64,000 nucleotides of DNA from Polaromonas sp. (GTDB lineage: Bacteria; Pseudomonadota; Gammaproteobacteria; Burkholderiales; Burkholderiaceae_C). Below, in pieces: positions 11,680 to 13,509 of this stretch. The notes under the pieces were generated by a model, which saw only the letters and a list, made by a program, of their open reading frames with translations, had not been told where the DNA came from and searched no databases. Both the position numbers and the translations under genes were made by a program. Position 1 is the first letter of the stretch, and the number at the start of each line of letters is the position of its first letter. The DNA lies in contig NZ_JAUYEY010000067.1 of NCBI RefSeq assembly GCF_030689685.1, forward strand, positions 1 to 64,000. The letters run 5' to 3'.

Positions 11680-11711
11680 AAAAAACCCCGGGCAGCTTAG
11701 GCTGACCGGGG
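11680..11711 (-). terminator. Intrinsic terminator on the minus strand
   Basis: CCCCGG-G-CAGC / GCTG-A-CCGGGG with a TTAG loop, one internal mismatch, then six A on the plus strand (T on the minus). No protein gene lies upstream on that strand, so it would end an RNA gene or a long untranslated transcript. Confidence 0.6.
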
Positions 11712-11890
11712 CTGACGGCGAACATGATGCTCATGCCGTCGGGCTTCGCAAAGAAGAGAAGTTCGTCTTCAGTGCGATGAGAGCAAGTGATTGCTCTCAG
11801 GTTTACCGGGAATGGTTACCCAGCGAATGCTTGAGGTACTCAAGCAATTGCAGAATAAACCTCCCGCACGCTGCGGGCAAGTCAATATTT
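11680..11890 (-). ncRNA. Candidate structured RNA (chain of hairpins)
   Basis: In about 210 gene-free bases there are five strong hairpins. In minus-strand order: CCCGCA/TGCGGG; TGCTTGAG/CTCAAGCA with a three-base loop; TGAGAGCAA/TTGCTCTCA with a four-base loop; GACGGC/GCCGTC with an inner ATGA/TCAT helix; and a final GC-rich stem followed by six T, an intrinsic terminator. That order ends a minus-strand transcript, so an RNA of about 200 nt or longer is likely. A short frame (LQLLEYLKHSLGNHSR) behind GGGAGG on the same strand is an alternative or additional reading. No known RNA family was recognised. Confidence 0.4.
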
Positions 11891-12212
11891 GTAATCAAAA
11901 AAGAGCGGACGATTGCTGTTTTCTGGAAGGTTTTACATCTTGGGGTTTTGTCCTACATACAGTCGGCAACAAACACCGATGAGGTTTTTTTGGCGCCTGT
12001 CTCAATGCTCCAGCGGTTTCTTTAAAAATGCTGCAAGGCCTTGAGCTGCTTCAATTTACTGGAAAAAACTACAGCTATTTCTGAATTTTCTTAAATTCGA
12101 ATTAACTAGAGCGGTCACCCGAAAATCCACAGAATCGGCAGAAACAGGTGGTTGCCGCCTTGAAATTCAGCCTTTTATCCATATATTTATATATCAATTT
12201 TATTTGATATTA
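11891..12212. other. Gene-free AT-rich stretch
   Basis: No coding frame of substance. The sequence becomes markedly AT-rich from about 12060, with a 10-bp palindrome AATTCGAATT near 12100 and an ATATATTTATATAT tract near 12180, the sort of DNA that bends or binds nucleoid proteins. It leads into the promoter of the transglycosylase gene. Nothing else recognised. Confidence 0.5.
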
Positions 12213-12401: not shown

Positions 12402-13277
12402 ATGACAGCGCTAGGACAATCAAGCCCCGCAGCCACCTTGCGGGCAATTCAGAAAAATGTGGGCAACAGTCTTGCAAGCATCGCAGACGACATTGCTCAG
12501 GGCTTTTTCGAAATCACGCACAACAGTTTTGCACTGGTCGGCCTGGCCGTGGTGTTTGCCGTGATCACACTCACCGCCCGGCCCGACCTGCGTCAGGCGG
12601 GTGAATCGCGTCTGATGACGTGGCTGCAGGAGCGCCAGGAAGCAGCCATCGGCTTTACCGAGCCCGGCGCGATTGACCGCGCCACGGCCGCCAACCCCAA
12701 GGACCTGCCCAAGCAGCAGGCTGCAGTGGCTTTCTGGCTCAGCCGCAAATACGGCATTGCGCCCGAGCCGCTGAGCGTGCTGGTGGCCGAAGCTTTTGAG
12801 ATTGGCCAAAAAGCCAAGCTCGACCCCACCCTCATCCTGGCCATCATGGCCATCGAATCAGGCTTTAACCCCTTCGCCCAAAGCCCGGTGGGGGCGCAGG
12901 GCCTGATGCAGGTCATGACCAAGATTCACCATGACAAGTATGAGAACTTCGGCGGCAAGCTGGCCGCCTTCGACCCGGTGACCAACCTGCGTGTCGGCGT
13001 CAAGGTTCTGCAGGAGTGCATTGCCCGCGCCGGTTCGCTCGAAGCAGGCCTCAAGTTTTATGTCGGTGCGGCCAATCTTGAAAGCGACGGCGGTTATGCC
13101 GCCAAGGTCATGGCCGAACATGCCCGCCTACTGGCCGTTGCCAACGGCCGGGCTCCGGTCTATGCGCCGGTGCGGCCACCGTTGGCTATTCCGGCCTCCA
13201 TGCCGCTCAATTCCGAAAGTCCGGAATTGTCCGGGCCAAAAGCCAGCGAAAAAGTCGCCAGCCTGTCCGTGTCCTGA
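12402..13277 (+). CDS. Membrane-anchored lytic transglycosylase (SLT family)
   Basis: 291 residues. One hydrophobic segment near residues 38-57 (FALVGLAVVFAVITL) should anchor it in the inner membrane with the catalytic domain outside. The SLT domain follows: catalytic Glu in ILAIMAIESGFNPFAQSPVGAQGLMQVM, and later AANLESDGGYAAKV. Such enzymes cleave peptidoglycan glycan strands, often to open the wall for remodelling or machine assembly. ATG 12402 is chosen because AAAGGAG lies just upstream; the track start at 12339 lacks a site. A consensus promoter lies 160 bp upstream. No secretion system gene adjoins it. Confidence 0.9.
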   Translation: MTALGQSSPAATLRAIQKNVGNSLASIADDIAQGFFEITHNSFALVGLAVVFAVITLTARPDLRQAGESRLMTWLQERQEAAIGFTEPGAIDRATAANPKDLPKQQAAVAFWLSRKYGIAPEPLSVLVAEAFEIGQKAKLDPTLILAIMAIESGFNPFAQSPVGAQGLMQVMTKIHHDKYENFGGKLAAFDPVTNLRVGVKVLQECIARAGSLEAGLKFYVGAANLESDGGYAAKVMAEHARLLAVANGRAPVYAPVRPPLAIPASMPLNSESPELSGPKASEKVASLSVS

Positions 13278-13333
13278 AGGGTCTGGCCGGCGTCCGATCT
13301 GGGGTTTCGGCAGCGACTCCGTTACACTAAGGC

Positions 13334-13453
13334 GGTGCGCGACTGGCGATAGGCTTGCCCTGATCACGGGGCAAGGCTGACGTGGGATTACCACTGGGAA
13401 GCGCACCGTCGGCTGTCATCGGTGACAGCGGCGTTCAGCCGTTCGCCTGGGCA
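13334..13453 (+). promoter_or_regulatory. ZTP (pfl) riboswitch upstream of glyA
   Basis: The pfl motif is visible in order: P1 strand GGTGCGC, then GACTGGCGAT, a variable hairpin, GTGGGATTACCACTGGGAA, closing P1 strand GCGCACC, a linker hairpin, and the conserved 3' element CGCCTGGGCA. This aptamer senses ZTP/ZMP, a signal of low 10-formyl-THF, and turns on one-carbon genes. glyA starts 56 bases downstream. GGCAG at its 3' end could pair with CTGCC just before the glyA GTG, which would fit translational control; that pairing is an inference. Confidence 0.85.
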
Positions 13454-13509
13454 GCCCTTGTTTCATGCACCCCCGTGCCAGGACAGGGACCACGTCTTGA
13501 AGGACTGCC

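Follow-up and report, generated by a model that had tools for sequence, protein, structure and literature searches.

The window discussed here is the whole 64,000-nucleotide stretch of Polaromonas DNA that was analyzed. On its minus strand lies what is very likely a real gene for a small regulatory RNA of about 170 bases, equipped with its own promoter, a regulator site, and a terminator. Upstream is a divergent gene for an SLT-domain protein (12402-13277, plus strand), which bears out the claim in the original prediction that no protein gene precedes the RNA on its own strand. Downstream, on the same strand as the RNA, is a remnant of a DUF748 gene (11539-10880), whose 219 amino acids match 118 of the 1037 profile positions. 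The usual order in most genera is a divergent gene for an SLT-domain lytic transglycosylase, the RNA, DUF748, and DUF349. A second structured RNA sits nearby: a ZMP/ZTP riboswitch (RF01750, 60.5 bits) occupies 13329-13459 on the plus strand, upstream of glyA, and such a riboswitch also adjoins the sRNA locus in several other genera.

Where does the RNA begin and end? Two covariance models were used, R1, built from a 32-sequence MAFFT alignment, and R2, a family-wide model; E-values from these models are rough. Both match the window beginning at 11852, with 187.9 bits for R1 and 150.3 bits for R2, and comparison of relatives also places the onset of RNA conservation at about 11852. Because the -35 element lies at 11880-11875 and the -10 element at 11857-11852, the start probably falls near 11846, at the foot of the first hairpin and about 6 nt past the conserved -10, and the 3' end would be set by the terminator. 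The predicted transcript (11680-11846, minus strand) is about 167 nt long, give or take a few nucleotides at its start. The original prediction of an sRNA gene is supported, and the gene is independent and conserved; the boundaries first drawn were slightly off, and the relatives give about 11846 to 11680, a span with six hairpins (P1 to P6), the last being a terminator with six U residues.

Six hairpins and their covariation

The segment 11660-11910, read on the minus strand, folds with a minimum free energy of -101.6 kcal/mol, compared with -73.7 ± 4.9 kcal/mol for 200 dinucleotide shuffles (z = -5.67), and none of the 200 shuffles folded to so low a value. The hairpins first proposed are present on that strand where they had been placed, with two corrections to be made. 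(i) The outermost, CCCGCAGCGTGCGGG (11877-11863), is not conserved and lies mostly in the variable spacer between the -35 and -10 elements. (ii) Two more conserved hairpins, P2 (11823-11806) and P4 (11776-11747), fall between the ones on the original list, whose entries are otherwise real.

Compensatory changes in relatives, proposed at the outset as a check on the stems, are found in two alignments. The 32-sequence MAFFT alignment is independent of the model rather than fitted to it, and with the structure given by RNAalifold it contains compensatory double changes in 18 of 50 pairs. The 70-sequence family alignment was fitted to the model, and hence is biased toward the structure; in it, 96.3% of cells are paired and double changes occur in 36 of 50 pairs. 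Cells changed on both sides number 491 in this fitted alignment, against 153 ± 9 in shuffles and at most 89 when the helices are slid out of register, and its covariation score is 0.406, against 0.153 and at most 0.087, respectively. Sliding the helices also drops the paired cells to 31 to 49%.

To describe the hairpins in order from the 5' end, with covariation taken from the 70-sequence alignment, P1 (TGCTTGAG-TAC-CTCAAGCA, 11828-11846) has two-sided changes at 7 of 7 pairs. P2 (CTGGG/CCCGG with the loop TAACCATT, 11806-11823) covaries in 5 of 5 pairs and is enlarged by inserts in other genera; in several of these (loci L045, L047, L052, and L058) the loop is extended by a large insert in which a motif resembling TAGGAGCC is often seen. 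P3 (TGAGAGCAA-TCAC-TTGCTCTCA, 11778-11799) is the most conserved element, with a nearly invariant inner stem, GCAA/TTGC, and outer pairs that covary. P4 (11747-11776) is an interrupted hairpin, CGCA...TGCG, whose inner stem is formed against a CU-rich 3' arm; in helices 4 and 5, 9 of 9 pairs show double changes, and in one genus (g63, locus L004) a perfect 12-bp stem with another sequence takes the place of the interrupted one. The outer six pairs of P5 (GACGGC...GCCGTC, 11714-11740) are nearly invariant, and its inner part covaries. P6 (11680-11713) is the intrinsic terminator, CCCCGG...CCGGGG followed by TTTTTT. It is kept in 32 of 32 near relatives, with covariation in the upper stem and a conserved T tract, and it confirms the strong terminator originally described, with a stem at 11713-11684 and six T residues at 11685-11680.

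Might these hairpins be a chance fold or a repeat at the DNA level? Hairpins between genes are common, but the shuffle z of -5.67, the single copy in the genome, and above all the covariation (18 of 50 and 36 of 50 pairs), which already refutes such a reading, leave it a vanishingly small probability. It is also extremely unlikely that the transcript is an mRNA for a small protein. Some orthologues do contain short open reading frames, but these vary in start and frame and are not conserved, 54 of 124 loci have none of 15 or more codons inside the RNA, and the sequence changes follow base pairing.

The promoter and an upstream dyad

The RNA appears to have a sigma70-type promoter of its own with a fixed 17-bp spacer, as judged from the DNA of the window and its relatives. 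On the minus strand, the -35 element TTGCCC (11875-11880) is followed after 17 bp by the -10 element TATTCT (11852-11857), and this spacing is conserved in orthologues: TTGNNN-N17-TANNNT is present in 81 of 103 nonidentical orthologues, and any other spacing in at most 11.

Farther upstream is the dyad CAATC-N14-GATTA (11892-11915, minus strand), a candidate regulator site that reads CAATC-N14-GATTG in relatives. The form CAATC-N14-(G/C)ATTG occurs in 50 orthologous promoters, where it starts 34 to 35 bp upstream of the -35 element; in the flanking DNA, 645,852 bp in all, it matches just once. In one group the right half-site, with AAA after it, starts 15 to 16 bp from the -35, in another 36 to 37 bp from it, and this 21-bp shift, equal to two helical turns, would fit a site that keeps its face of the helix. 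Across whole genomes (301 searched), 13 of the 23 matches to the dyad are at the sRNA locus. The other 10 have no common context on inspection, and for that reason they do not pin down the regulator.

Distribution and genomic context

How widespread is the RNA? By blastn, the region is found once in its own genome; 57 of the 87 genomes in the genus have it, and its occurrence across the family is patchy. The R1 model finds it in 90 of 301 family genomes and the R2 model in 119 of 301, representing 61 of 141 genera; within the genus, R2 raises matches in 62 of 87 genomes. Whether in the genus or the family, there is nearly always one copy per genome by R2. These genome counts are probably lower bounds, since the strict filters applied in searches of more than 40 genomes lose weak matches. 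An order-wide model search of 300 genomes gave convincing matches only within the same family. Order-level matches L068, L069, and L195 to L197 were set aside as chance, as they resemble matches to the terminator only or to coding sequence. Eleven of 80 pattern matches fail the covariance model, and all 11 lie outside the Comamonadaceae by title. The best model scores among named records belong mostly to Polaromonas. A blastn search of plasmids and phages returned no match to the RNA region, and there is thus no sign of a mobile element.

The gene order suggests another reading, a cis-acting leader, either a riboswitch or an attenuator, with a terminator that governs DUF748 or DUF349 downstream. 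In most genera one or the other is next on the same strand, and attenuators are classically laid out as a structured RNA with a terminator at its end. However, no fixed same-strand gene lies downstream. The RNA remains where DUF748 has been lost or has decayed, this window included, and in several genomes (e.g., loci L015, L019, and L027) it is kept without a DUF748 match before DUF349. In genus g63, it is flanked by an acyl-CoA dehydrogenase gene and a convergent cytochrome c gene, so that the next gene is on the opposite strand. Nor did inspection by eye reveal a conserved alternative partner for the terminator arm. A leader is therefore very unlikely, though some role for read-through may exist, as DUF748 or DUF349 follows on the same strand in most genera.

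At the position of DUF748, many relatives have a long open reading frame, and in others the gene is gone. The g63 loci (L003, L004, L040, and L189 to L191) share a different location, with the acyl-CoA dehydrogenase and cytochrome c genes adjoining; the 17-bp promoter spacing is retained there, and the dyad is not seen.

The RNA thus does not appear to be tied to a downstream gene, and the loss of DUF748 and the relocation in g63 favor a trans-acting sRNA over the leader of a fixed gene. The original reading of the locus as an sRNA gene stands up well, given the conserved promoter, the single copy, the persistence without the downstream gene, and the move to a new site in one genus.

Proposed function and relation to known RNAs

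It is highly probable, in our view, that the locus is an independent gene whose product is a small regulatory RNA of the Comamonadaceae that acts in trans. In the proposed scheme, a transcription factor bound to the dyad would control synthesis of the RNA from the regulated sigma70-type promoter, and the transcript, released at the U tract, would act in trans. Base pairing with the help of Hfq is a common mode of action for such RNAs. Here, too, pairing with mRNAs helped by Hfq would be the most likely mode, and we hold this step to be somewhat probable. The genome encodes Hfq (PF17209 match, E = 2e-28). The base-pairing reading is weakened because the CU-rich stretch that might pair with ribosome binding sites lies partly within the P4 stem.

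What else might an independent RNA do? The main rival on this point, possible rather than probable, is that it sequesters a protein, as 6S and CsrB do, instead of pairing with mRNAs; on this view the locus is still an sRNA gene, and only the way the RNA acts is different. In P3 (GCAA/UUGC) and P5 (GACGGC/GCCGUC), the stems keep their sequence beyond what pairing requires, and are therefore also compatible with a protein-binding role. Against this, the 6S RNA of the genome is encoded elsewhere, and the Polaromonas form has no repeated array of GGA loops. A more specific version, which we regard as unlikely, is that the RNA, present family-wide, works mainly by using its invariant P3 and P5 hairpins to bind a protein and answers to an unrecognized regulator at CAATC-N14-GATTG. 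If true, this would be a bacterial RNA of a new functional class and not another base-pairing sRNA.

Under the favored reading, a trans-acting sRNA, the Comamonadaceae (Polaromonas, Rhodoferax, Hydrogenophaga, Curvibacter, Ramlibacter, and others) gain a conserved candidate sRNA. With a covariance model now built, its promoter located, and a candidate site for a regulator marked out, its expression and targets are directly testable in culturable strains. The sRNA was very likely uncatalogued before. It is not described in Rfam 15 or in the main text of the open papers searched, though it may have been described earlier by a strain-specific name, and the main text of two surveys of noncoding RNA discovery (PMC11109978 and PMC8632094) does not mention the genera sought. 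The BRE of Bordetella (PMC3110155) is a different element, and a repeated one.

How does the RNA compare with known families? At the gathering cutoff of Rfam 15, the sRNA has no family match in the window or at 20 model-found loci (two of them later judged chance), and the only match at gathering score in this set is the ZTP riboswitch. Weak matches by E-value on the minus strand, to sroD, NsiR1, sX11, and anti-hemB (15 to 20 bits, E = 0.2 to 1.1), center on the 3' hairpins and terminator of the sRNA and were rejected, being far below the gathering scores of 39 to 70 bits. 6S RNA (RF00013) is similar in length and in being structured, but the sRNA fails its model, and the genome's own 6S match is elsewhere (G000:C22). 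The closest comparison is with the Hfq-associated trans-acting sRNAs of Proteobacteria. The RNA differs from these in lacking a sequence family match and in its six hairpins, which make it larger than many, and its binding to Hfq is putative. What it has in common with them is an intergenic location, a sigma70-type promoter of its own, a candidate site for a regulator, compact hairpins, a terminator with a U tract, and a single copy.
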